DNA from: a virus
IMG/VR virus record: IMGVR_UViG_3300047550_000942
Coordinates: 1-30,753 of that record
Length of the DNA: 30,753 nucleotides
Direction: 5' to 3' (one strand)
Shown: positions 2,922-24,912 of the stretch, piece after piece
How positions within the stretch are numbered: position 1 is the first letter of the stretch
How the letters are laid out: each line of letters begins with the position of its first letter
Position numbers and translations under genes: made by a program
The notes under the pieces: model-generated
Seen by the model: only the letters and a program-made list of their open reading frames with translations
The model's database searches: none
What the model was told of the DNA's origin: nothing

Positions 2922-4256
2922 ATGACTATATCAAAAGCCCATTGGAATACAGAGGGCGAGCAACTTCGCCTTTCAATGCCTTTCAACAAGGTAGATAAAG
3001 AGAGACGTACAGTCTCAGGTTTTGCTACGCTTGATAACTTAGATAAACAAGATGATATTGTAACAACAGAGGCAAGTTTAAAAGCATTTAAAAAATTCCG
3101 TGGAAATATTCGTGAAATGCATCAGCCATCAGCAGTTGGCAAAATGGTTTCATTTAAAGAAGATAAATATTATGATTCAGATTCTGAAAAAATGTATAGC
3201 GGTGTTGTTGTTTCTGCATATATTTCAAAAGGCGCACAGGATGCTTGGGAAAAAGTTCTTGATGGCACATATACTGGTTTTTCAATTGGCGGAAGAATGA
3301 ATACTTGGGATGATGCTTATGATGAAAAAATGGATAAACAAATTAGAATTATTAAAGATTATGATTTAGTGGAATTATCATTAGTTGATAGTCCAGCAAA
3401 TCAATTTGCAAATATTGTTTCAGTAGAGAAGGTAGATGGTGTAGATATTGTTAAAGGGATGGATACCGTTATTGAAAACGTATTTTGGGACAAAGAGTCT
3501 GGAATTGTAATGGTTTCAGAAAATGAATCAGAGGTGAGCCCTACAACTGGAAACCAGATGCAAAATATAGGTTTCGTTGAAAAAACAGACAACGAGAAAA
3601 CAAGCATGATCAAATTCTTAGTCGAAAGTGCTAAAGGCACAAGTATTTCTAAGATAGACAAGGAGGCAAATCCTATGGCAAAAACAACAAAGAAAGAAAC
3701 AGCAGAAGTCGTTGAGAAGTCTGATGTAGTTGTTGAAGATGTTCAGGTCGCTCCGCAGGCAGATGCCGTAGTCGAAACTGCTGAAGTTGCAAAGTCAGAA
3801 GATGTTGCAGCAGAAGCAATTTCAACAACCGAGCAGGCACCAGTAGCAGAAGTAACAAAGGCTGAAGAGCCTGTAGTTGCAGAAGTTGCTAAGTCTGAAG
3901 AGGTAGTTGCTGAAGTTAAGACTGAAGAGGTATCTAAGTCTGATGAAGTAATTGTGGATGCAGTTACAGAAATCAAAAATACTCTCACATCAGCCTTTAG
4001 CGATCTAGTTGCAACCGTTAAGTCTCTACAAGAGCAGGTCAATGCAATTACAAAGTCAGTTGATGCAGTAGCACAAGATGTCGCTGCAGCAAAGGGCGAA
4101 TTTAGTGAATTTGGAAAGCGTGTAGACGCAGTAGAAGCAGATACAGCATTCCGAAAGTCTGGCGATCTCGGAGAGATTGTCCAGGAACAACCAGAGATGG
4201 TTGAGAAATCCCTATGGGGCGGTCGTTTCCTCAAAACAGCCGACTTATTTCGATAA
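2922..4256 (+). CDS. Prohead protease (XkdF-like serine protease) fused to a scaffold domain
   Basis: This 444-residue fusion has two parts. Residues 1 to about 180 resemble the XkdF-like phage protease: GFATLDNLDKQDDIV near the start, a candidate catalytic His67 in REMHQPSAVGKM, the GFSIGGRM segment and candidate Ser153 in LVELSLVDSPANQ. Residues from about 250 onward are highly acidic and Ala/Val/Glu-rich, with degenerate E-V-x-K-S-E repeats (about 287-343). A coiled-coil-like stretch with few aromatics follows (about 350-410), as expected of a scaffolding protein. The protease would mature the procapsid and digest the scaffold. There is no Shine-Dalgarno before ATG 2922, while an excellent internal one exists at 3660-3666 (see the nested CDS). 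The major capsid gene follows 25 bases later. Protease assignment is strong. The identity of the catalytic residues is inferred from motif position. Confidence 0.88.
   Translation: MTISKAHWNTEGEQLRLSMPFNKVDKERRTVSGFATLDNLDKQDDIVTTEASLKAFKKFRGNIREMHQPSAVGKMVSFKEDKYYDSDSEKMYSGVVVSAYISKGAQDAWEKVLDGTYTGFSIGGRMNTWDDAYDEKMDKQIRIIKDYDLVELSLVDSPANQFANIVSVEKVDGVDIVKGMDTVIENVFWDKESGIVMVSENESEVSPTTGNQMQNIGFVEKTDNEKTSMIKFLVESAKGTSISKIDKEANPMAKTTKKETAEVVEKSDVVVEDVQVAPQADAVVETAEVAKSEDVAAEAISTTEQAPVAEVTKAEEPVVAEVAKSEEVVAEVKTEEVSKSDEVIVDAVTEIKNTLTSAFSDLVATVKSLQEQVNAITKSVDAVAQDVAAAKGEFSEFGKRVDAVEADTAFRKSGDLGEIVQEQPEMVEKSLWGGRFLKTADLFR
3660..3666 (+). promoter_or_regulatory. Internal ribosome binding site for a nested scaffold protein
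   Basis: AAGGAGG, a perfect Shine-Dalgarno match, ends eight bases before an in-frame ATG at 3675 inside the protease/scaffold gene. The gene's own start at 2922 lacks such a site, which makes the internal site stand out. Confidence 0.7.
3675..4256 (+). CDS. Nested scaffolding protein from an in-frame internal start
   Basis: ATG 3675 is codon 252 of the protease gene and would give a 193-residue protein (MAKTTKKETAEVV...) ending at the same stop. A perfect AAGGAGG lies at ideal spacing. The product would hold exactly the acidic repeat region and the predicted coiled coil, without the protease domain. This is the arrangement known for lambda C/Nu3, where a scaffold is made from the 3' end of the protease gene. 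Separate scaffold synthesis lets the phage produce far more scaffold than protease. Arginine codon use shifts toward CGT in this half, in keeping with high expression. What is seen is the site, frame and domain boundary; that it is used is inference. Confidence 0.7.
   Translation: MAKTTKKETAEVVEKSDVVVEDVQVAPQADAVVETAEVAKSEDVAAEAISTTEQAPVAEVTKAEEPVVAEVAKSEEVVAEVKTEEVSKSDEVIVDAVTEIKNTLTSAFSDLVATVKSLQEQVNAITKSVDAVAQDVAAAKGEFSEFGKRVDAVEADTAFRKSGDLGEIVQEQPEMVEKSLWGGRFLKTADLFR
3780..3950 (+). repeat. Degenerate E-V-x-K-S-E coding repeats in the scaffold domain
   Basis: Variants AEVAKSED, AEVTKAEE, AEVAKSEE, AEVKTEE and EVSKSDE recur at irregular spacing across about residues 287-343 of the fusion. 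This produces a low-complexity, highly charged helix-prone segment. The GAAGT/GCTGAAGTT nucleotide theme recurs with it. Confidence 0.6.
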
Positions 4257-5488: not shown

Positions 5489-5497
5489 TGATATAAT
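5489..5497 (+). promoter_or_regulatory. Extended -10 promoter candidate before the gene at 5515
   Basis: TGA followed by a perfect TATAAT (5492-5497) lies right behind the capsid hairpin. A second overlapping TATAAT is at 5484-5489. No -35 is seen. A clear ribosome site GCAGGAGG (5502-5509) precedes ATG 5515. Confidence 0.5.
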
Positions 5498-8501: not shown

Positions 8502-9146
8502 ATGGCATATACTAGAGGTACATCCAGCGATATTATCGTTGGCGCTGCTGCACTGTTTACAGCAGATAGTACATTGACACCAGGCACTGTGCCTGCGTTC
8601 GTCTCAGATGAATCCTACAAGGAGACTCTATCCAACACGACTAACATCGCTGCTGGAATCGACAACGTTGGTTACACAAGCAATGGTATCGAGATCACAT
8701 TCCAACCTGATTTCGGTGAGGTTCAAGTAGACCAAATTCTTGACGTTGCTAAACTTTATAAGCAAGGTATGCAAGTAACTCTTGCTACTTCGTTCGCAGA
8801 AGCAACTCTAGAAAATCTATTGTTCTCAATCGCAGGACAGGCTGATGATCTTTCAGGAAACAAAACACAATCTGCAGGTCGTACACTCAATCTCGCTTCT
8901 GGCGATATTGGAGAATGTCCAGTAGAACGTGCTCTTATCGCAGTAGGTCCAGGAACTGGCGACTGTGCAGACTCATCTAGCATTGAGCGTGTTTATGTTG
9001 CATACCGTGCACTTTCAATTGAAAATGTTACAGTATCAGCAAAGCGTGACACAGCAACAATGTTCGATGTTACATTCCGTCTTCTTCCAGAAGATGCTTC
9101 AGGATCATACGGAAAGATTATTGACCGTACAATCCAAAATTCATAA
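8502..9146 (+). CDS. Major tail (tube) protein
   Basis: This 214-residue protein has the features of a siphovirus tube subunit: a GAAALFTADSTLTPG N-terminal strand, a GIEITFQPDFGEVQVDQ segment, a helix around ILDVAKLYKQGMQVTLATSF and a C-terminal DVTFRLLPEDASGSYG. Such proteins stack in hexameric rings to form the tail tube. It is flanked by its own promoter-like element and ribosome site upstream and by a clear intrinsic terminator downstream. It is thus the best-delimited single-gene unit in the window. Seven of its eight Arg codons are CGT, unlike the AGA/AGG-rich minor tail genes, which fits high expression. Confidence 0.88.
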   Translation: MAYTRGTSSDIIVGAAALFTADSTLTPGTVPAFVSDESYKETLSNTTNIAAGIDNVGYTSNGIEITFQPDFGEVQVDQILDVAKLYKQGMQVTLATSFAEATLENLLFSIAGQADDLSGNKTQSAGRTLNLASGDIGECPVERALIAVGPGTGDCADSSSIERVYVAYRALSIENVTVSAKRDTATMFDVTFRLLPEDASGSYGKIIDRTIQNS

Positions 9147-9160
9147 AAACTGAATAAATA

Positions 9161-9192
9161 AAAGGACCCACTGGGAAACTGGTGGGTCTTTT
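9161..9192 (+). terminator. Intrinsic terminator after the major tail protein gene
   Basis: GACCCAC (9165-9171) pairs with GTGGGTC (9182-9188). The stem continues inward by T-G, G-T and G-C to a GAAA tetraloop and is followed by TTTT (9189-9192). It also has A-rich flanking bases that could pair with the T-tract. It is a textbook rho-independent terminator. Confidence 0.88.
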
Positions 9193-9200
9193 GCTATAAT
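9192..9200 (+). promoter_or_regulatory. Extended -10 promoter overlapping the terminator T-tract, leaderless start
   Basis: TGC followed by TATAAT (9195-9200) begins at the last T of the terminator. Six bases later comes ATG 9207, so the predicted transcript starts at the start codon. There is no room for a Shine-Dalgarno. The -35 position falls inside the hairpin and carries no consensus. Confidence 0.6.
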
Positions 9201-9206
9201 GTATAG

Positions 9207-9890
9207 ATGGCAACAACTGTTTATCAAACTAAAAATGTTTATTCTGTTTCTGGATTAGAAATAGAAGTTGGTCCATTAAAAATAAAATACTTAAGACAGT
9301 TTATGGATATTTTTGAATCTATAAGACAATCAAAAAACGATGAAGAGTCTATTGAAATATTAGCCAAGTGTGCTCAAATTGCCATGAAACAATTTTATCC
9401 AGAATTTGGAAAATCATATACTGATGTAGAAGATAATTTTGACCTACCAACAATATATCAAATATTAGATGCTGCTGCTGGAATAAAAATGAAAAAAAAT
9501 ACAGACGAGTCAGTTAAGAGTCAGGCTGAAGATAGTGATATGACCTGGAAAGATCTTAATCTAGTTAAACTAGAGTCTGAGGCATTCTTGCTCGGGATAT
9601 GGAAAGACTACGAAGAATTAGAATTATCTTTATCTATGCCAGAGTTGATGGCAATACTTGAATCAAAAAGAGAGTTAGACTACGAAGAAAAAAAATTCTT
9701 AGCAGCAATACAGGGAGTGGATTTAGATAAAAATAAAGCAAAAGAAGAGGACCCTTGGACGAGGTTAAAAAATAAGGTATTTAATCAAGGAAGAGATGAT
9801 AAAGACATTTTAACCTTTAAGGGCGATAAAGCAAGGAGAGCAGGGTTTGGAATAGGCATGGGTTTAGACTACGAAGATATGACAAAATAA
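9207..9890 (+). CDS. Tail assembly chaperone, long form (paralogue A)
   Basis: This 227-residue protein is the long, GT-like chaperone that sits just upstream of the tape measure gene. Its first about 95 residues (PLKIKYLRQFMDIFE, then CAQIAMKQF and DLPTIYQILDAAAGIK) are clearly homologous to the separate short gene at 9948. The remaining about 130 residues are charged and helical (DLNLVKLESEAFLLGIWKDY, then LSMPELMAILESKRELDYEE), like the T extension of lambda-type chaperones. The domain junction coincides with a run of eight A at 9492-9499. The start follows a TATAAT by six bases and has no Shine-Dalgarno (leaderless). All seven Arg codons are AGA/AGG, consistent with low expression. Chaperones of this kind bind the tape measure during tail assembly and are absent from the virion. 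Confidence 0.8.
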   Translation: MATTVYQTKNVYSVSGLEIEVGPLKIKYLRQFMDIFESIRQSKNDEESIEILAKCAQIAMKQFYPEFGKSYTDVEDNFDLPTIYQILDAAAGIKMKKNTDESVKSQAEDSDMTWKDLNLVKLESEAFLLGIWKDYEELELSLSMPELMAILESKRELDYEEKKFLAAIQGVDLDKNKAKEEDPWTRLKNKVFNQGRDDKDILTFKGDKARRAGFGIGMGLDYEDMTK

Positions 9891-9902
9891 GCATGTCTGC
9901 TA

Positions 9903-9911
9903 TGATATAAT
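9903..9911 (+). promoter_or_regulatory. Extended -10 promoter candidate before the short tail chaperone
   Basis: TGA followed by TATAAT (9906-9911) lies in the 57-base gap between the two chaperone genes. A ribosome site AAGGAAGG (9928-9935) precedes ATG 9948. No -35 at standard spacing. The short form thus has both its own promoter and its own Shine-Dalgarno. Confidence 0.5.
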
Positions 9912-9947
9912 TAATTCAAACCTACTGAAGGAAGGTATAAAATAACA

Positions 9948-10283
9948 ATGGCAACAGAAAAAACAACAGGTACTCAATTAGTCCTAATGGATGGAACAAA
10001 GATTAGTGTACGTCCTTTAAAGATTTCATTATTGAGACCATTTATGAAGAAGTTCGAGCAAATCGCAGCAGTAGCAGAAGACAACGATAAGTCTATGACT
10101 CTACTTTTGGAATGTGCTCAAATCGCAATGCAGCAATATAGTCCAGAGATAGCAGAAGATATTGATAAGTTGGAAGAGATCCTAGATCTGCCGACAGTTT
10201 ATCAAATTATTGAAGCAGCGTCTGGTGTTAAGTTAGCAGATGCTAATGCTTTACTTAATACTGTACTTGCAAATACTAACTAA
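9948..10283 (+). CDS. Tail assembly chaperone, short form (paralogue B)
   Basis: This 111-residue protein aligns along its whole length with the first about 95 residues of the gene at 9207. Shared blocks are the MAT start, PLKI followed by LR-x-FM and FE, CAQIAM, and DLPT-x-YQI with AA-x-G-x-K. It lacks the T extension and is equivalent to lambda gpG. In most siphoviruses both products come from one gene by programmed frameshifting. Here they are two adjacent genes, apparently from duplication. It has a separate promoter-like element and ribosome site. There is no slippery run at its end and no reading frame into which it could shift before the tape measure. Homology with its neighbour is seen directly; function is inferred from place and size. 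Confidence 0.82.
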   Translation: MATEKTTGTQLVLMDGTKISVRPLKISLLRPFMKKFEQIAAVAEDNDKSMTLLLECAQIAMQQYSPEIAEDIDKLEEILDLPTVYQIIEAASGVKLADANALLNTVLANTN

Positions 10284-10305: not shown

Positions 10306-13300
10306 ATGGCTGATGTAAACGCTAAAATTGGCGTACAAATTGATACGTCGGCCGCATTAGCAGAGTTAAAAGCCCTACAAAGACAGTTAGCAAATTTTCA
10401 TTCTTCTGTAGCAAAGGGAAGCGCAGCATCTGCTGCAGCACAAAAGAATTTACAGTATAACCTATTAAATGCTATAAATTCTACTGGTAAGTTCTATGCC
10501 CAAATGGGGCTAGTCCGAACATCTACGGAATCATTTACTCATGCACTTGAGAAAAACAAACTCTCAATGCGTGAGTATTTCCGTTATGCTGGCGGAGCAT
10601 CAAGAACATTTGGTAAATTATTTAAACAAGAATTTGACACAATAGGTAAGGTTGCTGAAGAACGTGTCAAGAAAATGTCTACCCAGTACATCAAGATGGG
10701 GCGTGATGCATCTGGTGCCATGAAGGCAATGTCGATTACTCCGACAACGCTAAACATGAAAGATTATGGTACACAGGTAGCATTAGCAGCACAAAAACAA
10801 GCATTATTTAATCAACTTTTAAAACAAGGCTCTACCAATCTTTTAAATTTTGGTAAGAATACTCAGTGGGCTGGTCGTCAGTTGATGGTTGGTTTTACAA
10901 TACCATTAGCATATTTTGGTACTGCTGCTTCAAAGACTTTTATGGATCTTGAAAAGCAAGCAATTAAATTTAAACGTGTCTATGGTGATATTTTTACAAC
11001 AACAGAAGAAACAGATAAGGCTCTTAAAGATATTCAGCAACTTGCACAGGAGTTTACAAAGTACGGCGTTGCAGTTACAGACACTATGGAAATGGCAGCA
11101 CAGGCTGCTGCGATGGGTAAGACTGGCGCAGATTTAATGGCGCAGGTGGCAGAAGCAACTCGTCTTGCAGTACTTGGCGGGGTAGAACAAGCACAAGCAT
11201 TAGAAACAACAATATCAGTTACAAATGCTTTTGGTATAGCAGCGGATGATCTAAGAAAGAAAATTGATTTTCTTAACGCTGTTGAAAACCAGACTGTAGT
11301 ATCTATTGAGGATTTAACTGTAGCAATTCCAAAAGCGGGTCCAGTTGTCCAACAACTAGGAGGATCTGTTGAAGATTTAGCCTTTTTCTTAACCGCAATG
11401 AAAGAGGGCGGTATTAATGCATCAGAAGGTGCTAACGCATTAAAGTCTGGACTTGCATCTCTTATTAATCCAACAGATAAAGCATCAAAAATGCTTGCAG
11501 GTATGGGTGTCAATATAAAGGCTATTGTTGAAGGAAATGCTGGTAATTTAAAAGAAACAGTAATTGATTTTGCTCAAGCACTAGATACATTAGATCCATT
11601 AAACAGAGCAAGAGCAATTGAACAATTATTTGGAAAATTCCAGTTTGCAAGATTATCTACTCTGTTCCAAAATATTACTAAAGATGGCACACAGGCAAGC
11701 AGGGTTTTAGATCTTGCCTCTGCATCAGTAGAAGAGTTGGCTATCCTATCAGAACGAGAATTAAAGAAGGTTGAGGATGCAGTAGGAGTTAACTTTAAAG
11801 AGGCTGTTGAAAAACTAAAAGTTGCTATTGCCCCAATAGGTAAAATATTTTTACAAACAATAACTCCGTTGGTTGAGGTTATAGGTAGATTACTTGATAA
11901 GTTTGATAATCTTAGTGATGGTACAAAAAAGTTTGTTATTGTAGCGGGTACATTAATTGGAGGAATTGGACCAGTTTTATTGATGACATTTGGTTTAATA
12001 TCAAATGCTATTGCTAATATTATTAAGTTATTTGTCACAATGCGTACTGGATTTTTAAGAGCAGGTACTACATCTAAAGTTCTTGCAGATCAAACACAAT
12101 ATTTAAATTCAGAGCAATTAGAAGCAGCAACAGTTGCAGCATCACTTAATCAGGCTCATAATAGATTAACTCAATCTTTCCAGGCAGAGACAGTTGCCAT
12201 ACAGATGTTGCGTCAAGCATATATTGATGCGACTGGTGCAGCAGCAAGATTCTCTGCTGTAAATCCAGGAATGATGAATCCAGGATTTAGAGGTTTTGGT
12301 CCAAAGAAATTTGCTTCAGGAACCACTGGAGTTGTTGGTGGTACGCCAGGCAAAGACTCAGTGCCTTCATTATTGATGCCAGGTGAAGCAGTTATTCCAG
12401 AGGCTATAGCACAAGATGAAAGATTTAAACCACTGGTAGAGGCTCTTGTAACTGGAAAGATAGCACAATATGGAGACGGAACAGTATTTGCACATGCAGT
12501 AGATAAAAAGGTGCTTAGTGGGGCGGGAGTTCCAGAAAGCATTAAAGCATTAGGATTCAACAGTGCAAATGCATTTACTGCAATAGGTTTTGATTTAAGT
12601 CCAGAAACTAACTCTAGATTAATAAACATAAATGTTCCAGTTCAAGATTATTTAAATGAAATAAATAAGCCTGGATCAACAAAAACAATGACTGCAAGAT
12701 TAATCGATCTTGGGGTAGATCCAAAAGATGCAGTTAGGGTTACGTCTCAAATAAGATCAAACCTTGCTAACTCTTTGTTAGGAATTCCTTCAGGAACAAT
12801 GATTGGTGATTCAGATATTTATTCTAGAATGGGAAATCTCAAGACAGGAGTATTGGGAGGTTTGGTAAGAAAATCAAGAGGTGGACTATTTGGTCAAGCA
12901 ATTAGATCATTGTACTCCCCAACTGCATATAGCCCTAGAGGTCTTTCAACAATTAAGATGAACTCTAATGTTCCTGTTTCACAAGTTATTGAAGCAGTAA
13001 AGAAAACAAGGACTTCACAGAGTGCAATAAGTGCTTTACGTAGAGTTCAAGAATTGGATCCAAACTATAGAATGCCAGTTAAGTTGGATTCTGCAGGAAA
13101 TATTGTTGCATTTGAAAGACCAGAAATTAGTAAGAGAACTGGTGAAATAAGTAATACTAGAGTAATTGGTGCTCTTCAGGGAAATAGATTTACAACTGCA
13201 AGATTAAGTCGTGGTGGTGGAAGAAAAATAACGCCAAGTCGTGGAGCCATGGAAATGGCAACACAGTTATTGGTTGGTAGAGGAGAAATTGTTCAAACTA

Positions 13301-16300
13301 AAGATGGCAGAATGCAAATGGTTACAAGTACAACTGGAAAACCAAAGGCTTCTCGTTCTAATGTTTTTGGTGGCGGTATATCAGATAAAAGATCATTACC
13401 ACTAACAACAGTTCGTAGAGTTATTCCTAGATTCCGAGGAATGGCACTGGGGGCCGAAGATGGATATCCACCAGTTGCTGGAGGAAAATCTTTTAGTCAG
13501 ACAGCCAGTGGACTTTTAGTACCACAAAGTGCTCTTGTTAATGCTTTAGAAAAAAATAGTGAAGCAGTTGATAATGGAACAAAAACACAGACTCAGTCAA
13601 GTAAAACACAAAAAGAAATAATTAAAGAACAGAGACAGGCAAGAGCAGATAGGATAGGAAGAGTTGCAGGACCTCTATCTATGGTTGCAGGTACCGCTGC
13701 TATGGCTGGATATGCTACAGGAAATGCTGGTATGGGAAATATTGCTATGGGAATTTCTGGTCTTGCAATGGTTGCACCAATGCTTGCAAATCCATTAGGT
13801 GCTACCGCAGCAGCACTTACTGCAATGACCGCAGCAGTTGTTCTAACTAGAAAGGCATTTGATAAAGCACAAGATAGTGCAATGGAAATGGCAGAAGCAA
13901 TGGGGTCTGGCGATAAGGCTATTCAAGACCTTGCTATGTTTGCAGGAAGAGTTAGTGCTGGAGAAATAATGGATAGGAGAAGAAGTAACATTCTTAATCC
14001 ATTTGCAGTACAAACTGGAAAAACTACTTTTGGTGAAAATTTTGTTAAATCAGAAACTGGAAAAGCGATGGTGTCCAGCGTTACACAATCTATCAAGACT
14101 GGTGGAAGCCAGGCAGCACAAGGTCAAATATTAAATCAATTGGCAACTGGAATTGCCTCTGGTGCAATAGATCCAGCCCAGGCAAGAAGTATTGCTGCAA
14201 ATATTGCATCTGAAATTGGAGACTATTCATTTGGAATTAATGTTAATGCAAAATTAATTGAACTTTTTGGAGTTAATGGAGAAAATCTCATGAAGGATCC
14301 ACTTAGACTGAGAGTGGTTCTTATGGAAGAATCTCGTAAAGATTTACAAAAACAGTCACAGTCGCTTTCCAACGTAGCCCCAGGAGCAATGACACAAACT
14401 CAACTTAAGGTTGGTGCAATAGGCTATGGTGCAGCAGGAGCAGTTGCTGGTGGAATACTTGGAGCAACAGCAGCAGGGGCAACAGCAGGCTCAGTAGTTC
14501 CAGTAGTTGGAACAGCGATAGGTGCTGCAATAGGAGCCACAATTGCTGCTGGTGCTTTATGGTTTAGTCAAAAGGGACAACAAGAAAAGTTAGGTAGAGC
14601 ATCTGGGGCAAATGTTGCTATGCAGAAAATGGCTTTAGAACAAAGTCAACAGATGCAAGATTCATTAAAATTAGAATATGAAAAAAGAATTGCAAATGCA
14701 AAGGCTGCTGGAGATATTGCTAAGGCAGTTCAGTTGCAAGGAGAATATGAAAAAGCAAATGCAGAATTATTAGCACAAAATGGAAAATTAGTAACAGATA
14801 TACAAAACAGTTATAAAGGTGCTTCTGGCGCAGTACGTGGTGCCCTTGAGACTGGATTAGATAAACAAATTACTGCAAAATATAAGGGAACTGCAATGGC
14901 AGATATTGCCCCTCTTGCAACAGACCTATTGGGTGGTTCTGCACTATCTAAAGAACAACAATTTACAATTAAAATGCAACTGGCATCTGGACAAATGGAT
15001 CCAATGCAAATAGTTAATTTAATGGAAACTTTTGGAAAAGATTCAAAAACATTAACAAAGGTTATGAATATAGTTACAAAGTTTGGAGGAGCCTTTGCTG
15101 GGCAAGCAATGTCTGTTGCAGATCTATTTAAAGATAAAAAAGGCAATCCATTAAAAGAACAACAAACTAAGTTTATTGCTGATATTAGTACTAAAACATC
15201 TGAAGAGGCAGAGAAATATCTTAAGTTATTTGCTGAAATAAGTAGGGTTGGAAATGTTATGGATGTTGAAGTTGCATTAACATATTACAGTAACAATCCA
15301 TTAGCAGCAGCACAACTACAATCCACAATAGATAAAATTAATGAACAAAAAGGAAAAATAACATTAGATGTTGCAACTAAAATTCTAGGCGCTAAAGAAA
15401 TGGAAGCGCTAAGAAAAGATCAAGAATACTTTAGTAGTTTGCCAGCAGAACAACAAAAGGTATATTTACAAACATTAACAACAATAGCAAATATTCAAGG
15501 CACTAATGCTGAAGCAATTAAAAATTGGCTAACTCAAAATCCAGGAAAAACTGAAGCAGATTATTATATTGAGTCTGCACAAAAATTAACAAAGGTTAGT
15601 GTTGATAATACAATCCCTACTGGAGCAACAGACTCTCAAGACACAGGTAAAAGAGATACTACTTTTGATGATATTTTAATAAATTTAAAGAGAACTAGAG
15701 ACGCAACAATAGACGCCACTGGTGGAGCAAAAGAATTAATTAGAGTTTTAGGTGGTACTAAAGATATAACTATTTTTAAAGGTCTTGATCAGCAACTAGC
15801 AAGACTAGGAGCAAATACAGATTTTATTGAATTTGCTGGTGGCGTAGAAAAAGCAATTCAAAATAAAATAATTAGAGTAAGCAAAGATGGTGTTGCCTCA
15901 TTAACTGAATTGGGCAAGGCTGCAATGAAGGCTTATAATGAAAAACAACTAGGTTTGTATCAAGCAGGACAAATCAATGCAGCCAAAGGAGCAATTGCAC
16001 AAAGAGAAGCATTTGTTAAACTCAAGGCTGCTGGTGCATCAAGTGCAGAGGCATTAGAGTTGGTTGCTGACGCACAATTAGCAATATCAATTAACTCTCA
16101 AAGATCTGCTAAAGATGTTGACTTATTGGTTAAGTCATTGCGAAATGCTAAGAAAGAATCTGATAAGACATTTAGGGCAAATGATCCAGTAAGTGCTCTT
16201 GAGGAAGATATACAAAATATCAATACTATGTTTGATCTATATGAAAGACAGGCAAGGGCAAAATATGAGCCACAAATAGATAGGGTAAATAAATTAATTG

Positions 16301-17661
16301 ATGCTGCACAGGAACGTGTAGATGATTTACAAAGAAAAGCAGAACTAGAATATGACAGACCTATTCAAAAATTACAAGAGCAGACTAGTGCTTTGAATCA
16401 TGACCTAACATTAATCTCACAAGCAACAGATAAAATAAATGAAAAATATGATAAACAGAGAGAGGCTCTTGAAAAGGTTTATGCAATAAATGAAAGAATT
16501 GCACAGCAACAAAAATCTAAGATTGCTCTTGCAGATGCTTTAACACAAGGAGACATTTCTGCTGCTGCTCAGGCCATGGCAGATATGAGGTCTGAGGCTC
16601 AGGGTTACGCACAAGAAGATAGCCTAACTGCATTAGAGACAGCAAGACAAAACGAAATAAATGCATTGACCAGTTCAACTGGAATGACAAAAGTACAGAT
16701 TGAACAAAAACTGTTTGATATATCAGAAGAAATATATGCATTGGAAACAAAACGTCAAACTGTTGATGCAGAAATATTAAAACTTCAAGATGAAATTTAT
16801 AATTTACAGAATAATCAACTAAAGGTTGCAGAAAAAGCATTGGCTGCAGAACTTGAGGCAATTGATGCACAAAGACAAAAGTGGAATAATGTTCAACTTG
16901 CTATTGATTTTGCTAGGGCTAATGCTGCTGGATATAATCAATTATTATTAGATGCCGAGGCAACATTAACAAGAATGCTTGCTTTGTGGGCAAGTATGGG
17001 GTCTGGAATTACTATGGGGGCTATAGAAGGCGCTCTAGGCGGGGCTCCAGTAGAAGTCACATCTTTTGGCGGTGAAACAAAAACTGGCTCTAGTGGTACA
17101 ACTAAGAAAACAAATAATCCATCTGGTACTGGTAAAAAGGGCGCAGCAGCATCTGGAGGTTTTAAGACAGCAACAGCATATCGCTCATACAGGTCTGGTG
17201 AACGTGGAGATACTGGCATAACAACCTCTTCAGCAATGGCTTCTGGATATACCAATGCAAAAACATACCAATCATTCCGTGCAGGAGAAAGAATGTATGG
17301 AGGTTTGATAAAGAAATATAATGTTGGTGGAATTATTGCAGGTGCTGGTATGACAGATAAGGTACCCGCACTTCTGACCCCTGGAGAGTATGTTGTTAAT
17401 CGTGCTGCAACACAAAAGTTTGGTCCCCTATTAGAACAAATAAATGAATCTAAATACCCAGGAAGTTTATCTTTAGGCGGTACCCCAAGCATTTCTGCAG
17501 TAAATAATAATATGGTTAATAATAACTCTACCTCAGTGTATAATTATAGTTTGGATGTAAATGTTAGCGGAACAAATGCAAATCCAGATGATATTGCAAG
17601 AACCGTTATAGCACAAATTAGAAGCATGGATGCTCAAAGATTAAGGGGGAATAGATACTGA
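10306..17661 (+). CDS. Tail tape measure protein
   Basis: This 2451-residue protein is the longest in the window. Residues about 170-420 carry the TP901-type tape measure core (AQEFTKYGVAVTDTMEMAAQ, AFGIAADDLRKKIDFLNAVE, and EGGINASEGANALKSGLASL). Hydrophobic or Gly/Ala-rich stretches at about 544-582, 1124-1185 and 1369-1419 could form membrane spans used during DNA ejection. A long charged coiled coil runs about 1978-2198. The C-terminus has VPALLTPGEYVVN (from V2353), common in tape measures, and a second copy-like VPSLLMPGEAVIP occurs at V686. YRSGER-type motifs occur at 2295-2302 and 2324-2329. With the usual 0.15 nm per residue, it predicts a tail near 370 nm. No lytic domain is recognised. 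ATG 10306 is preferred over ATG 10302, which stops after three codons. It overlaps the next gene (TGATG). Confidence 0.95.
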   Translation: MADVNAKIGVQIDTSAALAELKALQRQLANFHSSVAKGSAASAAAQKNLQYNLLNAINSTGKFYAQMGLVRTSTESFTHALEKNKLSMREYFRYAGGASRTFGKLFKQEFDTIGKVAEERVKKMSTQYIKMGRDASGAMKAMSITPTTLNMKDYGTQVALAAQKQALFNQLLKQGSTNLLNFGKNTQWAGRQLMVGFTIPLAYFGTAASKTFMDLEKQAIKFKRVYGDIFTTTEETDKALKDIQQLAQEFTKYGVAVTDTMEMAAQAAAMGKTGADLMAQVAEATRLAVLGGVEQAQALETTISVTNAFGIAADDLRKKIDFLNAVENQTVVSIEDLTVAIPKAGPVVQQLGGSVEDLAFFLTAMKEGGINASEGANALKSGLASLINPTDKASKMLAGMGVNIKAIVEGNAGNLKETVIDFAQALDTLDPLNRARAIEQLFGKFQFARLSTLFQNITKDGTQASRVLDLASASVEELAILSERELKKVEDAVGVNFKEAVEKLKVAIAPIGKIFLQTITPLVEVIGRLLDKFDNLSDGTKKFVIVAGTLIGGIGPVLLMTFGLISNAIANIIKLFVTMRTGFLRAGTTSKVLADQTQYLNSEQLEAATVAASLNQAHNRLTQSFQAETVAIQMLRQAYIDATGAAARFSAVNPGMMNPGFRGFGPKKFASGTTGVVGGTPGKDSVPSLLMPGEAVIPEAIAQDERFKPLVEALVTGKIAQYGDGTVFAHAVDKKVLSGAGVPESIKALGFNSANAFTAIGFDLSPETNSRLININVPVQDYLNEINKPGSTKTMTARLIDLGVDPKDAVRVTSQIRSNLANSLLGIPSGTMIGDSDIYSRMGNLKTGVLGGLVRKSRGGLFGQAIRSLYSPTAYSPRGLSTIKMNSNVPVSQVIEAVKKTRTSQSAISALRRVQELDPNYRMPVKLDSAGNIVAFERPEISKRTGEISNTRVIGALQGNRFTTARLSRGGGRKITPSRGAMEMATQLLVGRGEIVQTKDGRMQMVTSTTGKPKASRSNVFGGGISDKRSLPLTTVRRVIPRFRGMALGAEDGYPPVAGGKSFSQTASGLLVPQSALVNALEKNSEAVDNGTKTQTQSSKTQKEIIKEQRQARADRIGRVAGPLSMVAGTAAMAGYATGNAGMGNIAMGISGLAMVAPMLANPLGATAAALTAMTAAVVLTRKAFDKAQDSAMEMAEAMGSGDKAIQDLAMFAGRVSAGEIMDRRRSNILNPFAVQTGKTTFGENFVKSETGKAMVSSVTQSIKTGGSQAAQGQILNQLATGIASGAIDPAQARSIAANIASEIGDYSFGINVNAKLIELFGVNGENLMKDPLRLRVVLMEESRKDLQKQSQSLSNVAPGAMTQTQLKVGAIGYGAAGAVAGGILGATAAGATAGSVVPVVGTAIGAAIGATIAAGALWFSQKGQQEKLGRASGANVAMQKMALEQSQQMQDSLKLEYEKRIANAKAAGDIAKAVQLQGEYEKANAELLAQNGKLVTDIQNSYKGASGAVRGALETGLDKQITAKYKGTAMADIAPLATDLLGGSALSKEQQFTIKMQLASGQMDPMQIVNLMETFGKDSKTLTKVMNIVTKFGGAFAGQAMSVADLFKDKKGNPLKEQQTKFIADISTKTSEEAEKYLKLFAEISRVGNVMDVEVALTYYSNNPLAAAQLQSTIDKINEQKGKITLDVATKILGAKEMEALRKDQEYFSSLPAEQQKVYLQTLTTIANIQGTNAEAIKNWLTQNPGKTEADYYIESAQKLTKVSVDNTIPTGATDSQDTGKRDTTFDDILINLKRTRDATIDATGGAKELIRVLGGTKDITIFKGLDQQLARLGANTDFIEFAGGVEKAIQNKIIRVSKDGVASLTELGKAAMKAYNEKQLGLYQAGQINAAKGAIAQREAFVKLKAAGASSAEALELVADAQLAISINSQRSAKDVDLLVKSLRNAKKESDKTFRANDPVSALEEDIQNINTMFDLYERQARAKYEPQIDRVNKLIDAAQERVDDLQRKAELEYDRPIQKLQEQTSALNHDLTLISQATDKINEKYDKQREALEKVYAINERIAQQQKSKIALADALTQGDISAAAQAMADMRSEAQGYAQEDSLTALETARQNEINALTSSTGMTKVQIEQKLFDISEEIYALETKRQTVDAEILKLQDEIYNLQNNQLKVAEKALAAELEAIDAQRQKWNNVQLAIDFARANAAGYNQLLLDAEATLTRMLALWASMGSGITMGAIEGALGGAPVEVTSFGGETKTGSSGTTKKTNNPSGTGKKGAAASGGFKTATAYRSYRSGERGDTGITTSSAMASGYTNAKTYQSFRAGERMYGGLIKKYNVGGIIAGAGMTDKVPALLTPGEYVVNRAATQKFGPLLEQINESKYPGSLSLGGTPSISAVNNNMVNNNSTSVYNYSLDVNVSGTNANPDDIARTVIAQIRSMDAQRLRGNRY
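17188..17292 (+). repeat. Two YRSGER-type peptide motifs in the tape measure C-terminus
   Basis: YRSGERGD (residues 2295-2302) and FRAGER (2324-2329) lie 29 residues apart, each preceded by a similar A/T-x-Y-x-S context. The same motif recurs twice in the protein encoded at 22398-23228. Confidence 0.7.
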
Positions 17662-24903: not shown

Positions 24904-24912
24904 TGATATAAT
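24904..24912 (+). promoter_or_regulatory. Extended -10 promoter candidate for the lectin-to-primase run
   Basis: TGA followed by TATAAT (24907-24912) starts at the base after the TAG stop of the upstream gene. AGAGGAG at 24917-24923 precedes ATG 24928. Downstream genes to 28725 overlap or lie within a few bases, so this element could drive all of them. No -35 is evident. Confidence 0.5.

Follow-up and report, generated by a model that had tools for sequence, protein, structure and literature searches.

Probable replacement of programmed frameshifting by gene duplication in the tail assembly chaperones of one phage family

Two adjacent genes in a 30,753-nucleotide stretch of DNA from a freshwater phage (IMG/VR record IMGVR_UViG_3300047550_000942, positions 1 to 30,753; hereafter the window) very probably encode the two forms of a tail assembly chaperone, a short form like gpG and a long form like gpGT of lambda, in a ratio that would be set by expression. 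Tailed phages usually make both forms from one gene by a programmed ribosomal slip, and few recoding events in phages are as conserved as this one. We consider it likely that within this phage family programmed frameshifting was replaced once, in nature, by duplication, and that the stoichiometry now lies in paralogues with opposite start types (a leaderless long gene and a Shine-Dalgarno-led short gene), unequal promoters and unequal codon adaptation.

Results

A long and a short chaperone gene between the major tail protein and tape measure genes

The preliminary description of the window had proposed adjacent, separately started genes for proteins of 227 and 111 residues, and both open reading frames (ORFs) were recovered on the plus strand, each with an ATG start. 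The long gene (9207-9890) is read in a single frame and comprises an N (G-like) domain at 9207-9494 and a C (T-like) domain at 9546-9887; because an in-frame TAG lies directly upstream of the ATG at 9207, no earlier start is possible. The short gene occupies 9948-10283. The proposed homology of the two was borne out, the N-domains being identical at 40 of 96 positions (42%, E=2e-24). Upstream lies the gene of the major tail protein (8502-9146, plus strand; Ig-domain phrog_2175, E=3e-34; phrog_885, major tail protein, E=3e-4), and downstream that of the tape measure protein (10306-17661, plus strand; phrog_10030, E=4e-100; PF10145, E=3e-29 on the first 667 residues). The pair thus has the position of gpG/gpGT-type chaperones and, like them, gives two products with a common N-domain, the longer one with an extra C-domain.

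Profile searches did not split the N-domains into different families, both gene products matching phrog_10504. The C-half of the long form matched a separate family, phrog_10474, and this division by PHROGs pointed to relatives that encode the halves as separate ORFs. The C-domain is homologous to the -1-frame ORF of Stanwilliamsviridae (42-43% identity with the C-domain of Gilson in an alignment), and tblastn against Streptomyces phage genes gave E-values down to 4e-26, many of the genes being annotated as tail assembly chaperone. AlphaFold2 predicted the same succession of elements, two strands and then helices, for each N-domain (pLDDT 72 and 76), and the top BFVD match of the short form was a tail assembly chaperone of an uncultured phage (E=1.5e-6, TM 0.72). 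HK97 gp13 (2OB9) was a weak fold match, tied with unrelated chains, at Z 4.4 over 84 residues for the long form and Z 4.0 over 80 residues for the short form. Pfam and NCBIfam gave scattered low-scoring matches only for either protein, none of them to a curated tail-chaperone Pfam family; PDB sequence profiles yielded no relative, Foldseek of the long model against the PDB yielded nothing significant, and a scan for close relatives of the short form in bacterial and archaeal genome contigs found none. One family, its annotation as tail assembly chaperone in cultured relatives, the gene position, and a slippery site conserved in neither gene of the clade together agree with the earlier assignment of the pair as two chaperone forms.

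Two gene architectures among the relatives

IMG/VR was scanned with each protein and with alignments that included Streptomyces phage homologues, and the best 80 loci per query were taken, which makes them samples and no census. At least 324 loci, copies of the window included, had both domains resolved, and they showed two architectures. In the pair type (at least 177 loci, at least 121 of them distinct), N is fused to C in a single frame and a second, separate N gene follows, so the survey for the same gene pair that had been proposed returned it widely. Since fusion of N to C leaves the phage in need of another source of the short form, the second gene would be that source in this class. 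The frameshift type (at least 147 loci, at least 110 distinct) has a single N gene, which is overlapped by a -1-frame C ORF in 147 of the 147 listed; this type includes every cultured relative inspected (Stanwilliamsviridae, Streptomyces phages) and many freshwater contigs. Four deep-branching frameshift-type relatives (L186, L187, L278 and L212) have very divergent N or C domains.

The short gene is conserved, being present at every locus whose contig extends to its position; at the three loci with the fused gene only, the contig edge comes soon after the long gene. In one relative, L019, the long gene is broken into two ORFs that overlap (137 and 119 aa, at 3215-3971) and stand beside an intact short gene, through assembly error, decay or a secondary frameshift. 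Such a broken gene is what one would expect if the separate genes were an assembly artefact or a misread frameshifted gene, but the intact layout with two full N-domains, found at all of the distinct pair-type loci and in many metagenomes, refutes this explanation and leaves it next to no probability.

The slippery site is present in one architecture and erased in the other

The overlap of frameshift-type genes typically encodes KLNDPN with GAC CCA AAC, that is, the canonical X_XXY_YYZ heptamer C_CCA_AAC. CCCAAAN occurred in 51 of 60 frameshift-type representatives and GGGAAAC in 2 more; the 7 that have no canonical heptamer are Samistivirus-like loci, most of them with CCCGGAA at that position. 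None of the 53 pair-type short genes had CCCAAAN. They retain a similar tail, KLADANALL in the window, from which the proline codon has been lost: GAT GCT AAT (DAN) at 10239-10247 on the plus strand aligns with the GAC CCA AAC (DPN) of the frameshift-type relatives. Judged by this alignment, the old slip site is recognisable as a protein motif and erased as a signal. TTTAAAY heptamers in 8 of 53 short-gene tails were rejected as slip sites, the C-domain being upstream in the long gene and none lying downstream of the short gene.

The long gene carries a run of eight A at its N/C junction (9492-9499, plus strand), and a -1 slip there, by ribosomal frameshifting or transcriptional slippage, would yield a protein ending in ...KKKYRRVS of roughly the size of the short form, with the short gene as a mere supplement. 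The run was nevertheless rejected as a slip site, and this alternative is highly improbable: the N/C junctions of 53 long genes share no conserved heptamer, an in-frame A-run heptamer being present in only 7 of them, and a separate, conserved short gene stands at every locus that reaches far enough.

With N and C in the same frame throughout the pair type and CCCAAAN absent from its short genes, these genes lie outside the frameshift-expressed tail assembly chaperones. The preliminary description had allowed that relatives with a single gene and a conserved slippery site would speak against it. Such relatives do exist, literally as described, in the outgroup; in the window's own clade the site has been lost and the long form is fused in frame. 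The reading that these outgroup relatives display the ancestral state, and do not contradict the two-gene claim, is supported by the comparison.

Contrasting expression signals of the two genes

Upstream regions were compared across 60 N genes of the frameshift type and, for the pair type, 52 long and 53 short genes; the loci share ancestry, so that the counts show conservation and not independent events. The long gene of the window is preceded by a terminator-like hairpin (9161-9192, plus strand; 14 bp stem, 4-nt loop, U-rich 3' arm; -21.4 kcal/mol, z=-6.35) that would close the transcript of the major tail protein. Hairpins directly 5' of long genes had a median of -20 kcal/mol; the value was about -3 for short and frameshift-type genes. 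Next to the hairpin, the extended -10 element TGCTATAAT (9192-9200, plus strand) starts its TATAAT hexamer at -12 from the ATG, which puts the predicted transcription start at the A of the start codon, and the gene has no Shine-Dalgarno (SD) sequence (duplex +0.8 kcal/mol). The long gene is therefore predicted to be leaderless, as had been proposed. Across the family, SD sequences are absent from long genes (median duplex -2.9 kcal/mol), the -10 element starts at -12 in 28 of 52 loci and at -11 to -15 in the remainder, TGn is present in 49/52 and a perfect TATAAT in only 14/52. A -10 score of at least 5 was reached at this position in 51 of 52 loci, compared with a mean of 2.9 (maximum 8) when the sequences were shuffled. 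A generic promoter scan, which requires a -35 match, did not list the long-gene promoter; the predicted promoter is shown by the extended -10 element and its conservation.

Leaderless genes, which are common in Actinobacteria, are marked by a TANNNT or TA-like -10 element that lies some 12 bp 5' of the start codon (PMC3160421), and the long gene has just this combination of a -10 element at that distance and no SD; the pair differs from those genes in that one paralogue is leaderless and the other SD-led. Since leaderless messages can be well translated in Actinobacteria, a leaderless start does not by itself mean weak expression. Two other window genes, at 2922-4256 and 888-1298, have TATAAT/TATACT-like elements directly before their start codons and weak SD sequences (1.0 and -2.9 kcal/mol), and are possibly leaderless too. 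The former encodes a prohead protease with a C-terminal zipper-like stretch and is perhaps a protease-scaffold fusion.

For the short gene, the promoter-like element and SD sequence of its own that had been described were both located on the plus strand, the extended -10 element TGATATAAT at 9903-9911 and the SD sequence GAAGGAAGG at 9927-9935 (duplex -8.3 kcal/mol; family median -10.2). TGnTATAAT was perfect in 53 of 53 short-gene representatives. Short and frameshift-type genes are alike in these signals, with the extended -10 mostly at about -29 to -35 and a median SD duplex of -10.2 kcal/mol in both. TGnTATAAT occurs 4 times in the 30.7 kb of the window, about the number expected by chance; all four sites (5489-5497, 9192-9200, 9903-9911 and 24904-24912) lie on the plus strand just 5' of genes, two of these being the chaperone genes, and they are probably promoters of this phage.

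Codon usage separates the two genes as well. All 7 arginine codons of the long gene are AGA or AGG, as the preliminary description had stated, and the bias holds family-wide, with 245 of 299 arginine codons in long versus 42 of 117 in short genes. With pooled major tail protein genes as the reference, the long gene had a lower codon adaptation than the short gene at 53 of 53 loci (medians 0.53 versus 0.65).

The pair is nested among frameshift lineages

Three trees were rooted on Streptomyces phages, one each for the major tail protein, the C-domain and the tape measure protein. In all three, the pair-type phages adjoin one freshwater frameshift clade and are nested among frameshift lineages, which indicates that frameshifting was replaced; support for the branch joining pair and frameshift types was modest (SH-aLRT 69 in the tail protein tree and 84 in the C tree). 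L299 and L318 combine a frameshift-type chaperone and tail protein with a tape measure gene of the pair-type clade: in the tape measure tree these frameshift loci fall inside the pair clade, and their tail protein and C-domain fall outside it, a placement that suggests a recombination boundary separating C from the tape measure gene.

The N-domain trees contained one long clade (99/99) and one short clade (100/99), and the short clade joined the freshwater frameshift clade just named (100/99). The long N-domain, with a branch of length 0.64, falls outside this group, a position that would be expected if this domain, or the whole long gene, had been gained by recombination from a distant relative with no duplication in the lineage; the recombination seen in the region in L299 and L318 fits as well. 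We regard such a gain as possible but unlikely, since the AU test does not reject long and short as one N clade (p=0.059) and the long gene's C-domain has as its sister group the very freshwater frameshift clade to which the short gene is related. The long N copy could have arisen either by tandem duplication and fast divergence or in another lineage. Most simply, we infer a single switch from frameshifting to two genes, through duplication and in-frame fusion.

The long branch, a faster evolution of the long N-domain (dN 0.15 versus 0.05) and the mere 42% identity of the N-domains in the window are also consistent with diverged roles, in which the long form would have ceased to coat the tape measure protein and become an adaptor, with the short form as the sole chaperone, with G-domains that are not interchangeable and no tuned ratio. 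This seems doubtful, given the same predicted order of secondary structure, the shared motifs, a gene position as for gpG/gpGT, and purifying selection on both genes (dN/dS 0.11 for the long and 0.10 for the short), the former value ruling out that the long gene is a decaying copy.

Discussion

In lambda, many copies of the short form bind the tape measure protein, and the long form, which is rare, connects that protein to the major tail protein; the ratio is 30:1 (PMC5009743). The pair resembles lambda gpG/gpGT in having a short and a long form with a common N-domain, an extra C-domain in the long one and the tape measure gene adjacent; it differs in that lambda obtains its ratio by -1 programmed frameshifting. 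In TP901-1, permanently fused gpG-T gives particles that look normal but are non-infectious (PMC4493119). The closest cultured counterparts are the Stanwilliamsviridae (the Streptomyces phages Gilson, Samisti12, BillNye and TunaTartare), which have homologous N and C domains in the same place between the major tail and tape measure genes. In contrast to the pair type, they have one N gene with C in an overlapping -1 frame (as a joined CDS in the TunaTartare annotation); the overlap contains CCCAAAN, or CCCGGAA, in most of them, and their start is led and SD-bearing.

By the proposed mechanism, the N gene would have been duplicated, the upstream copy being fused in frame to C and the downstream copy keeping a gpG-like tail free of CCCAAAN. 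By analogy with lambda, many copies of the short form may coat the tape measure protein, and the long form may recruit the major tail protein through its C-domain. A stronger promoter, better codons and initiation led by an SD would favour the short form, and the long form would be held down by a promoter of weaker consensus, leaderless initiation and poor codons. There is no terminator between the genes, so a transcript from the long gene would also carry the short gene. The contrasts in promoter, SD/leader and codons all point to an excess of the short form. That expression rather than frameshifting sets the short:long ratio, the suggestion made initially, is an interpretation that we find well supported, because the differences in promoter, leader, SD and codons are conserved across more than 50 diverged loci.

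A two-gene solution is already known. According to the work cited in PMC10885494 (Vladimirov, Gautam and Davidson 2022, Virology 566:9-15), T4-like phages dispense with frameshifting and encode the short form and a fused long form in separate genes. The likeness, as far as that citation describes it, lies in the separate short gene and the in-frame long fusion gene; the T4-like phages are a different virus group, likened here by gene layout and not by sequence, and the frameshift ancestor within the family argues for an origin of the pair type independent of the T4-like genes. Relative to the open-licence literature, the new parts are a switch within one family with a resolved frameshift ancestor, a visibly erased slippery site, a conserved contrast of leaderless and led starts, and a second virus group with two genes.

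A caution for annotation is that rules by which neighbouring chaperone ORFs are joined as a frameshift would give a wrong result in the pair-type clade. As close relatives show both states, one with a visible slippery site and one in which it has been erased, the purpose of frameshifting in tail chaperones (a fixed ratio, co-translation or genome economy) can be tested by a comparison of two solutions that both work.
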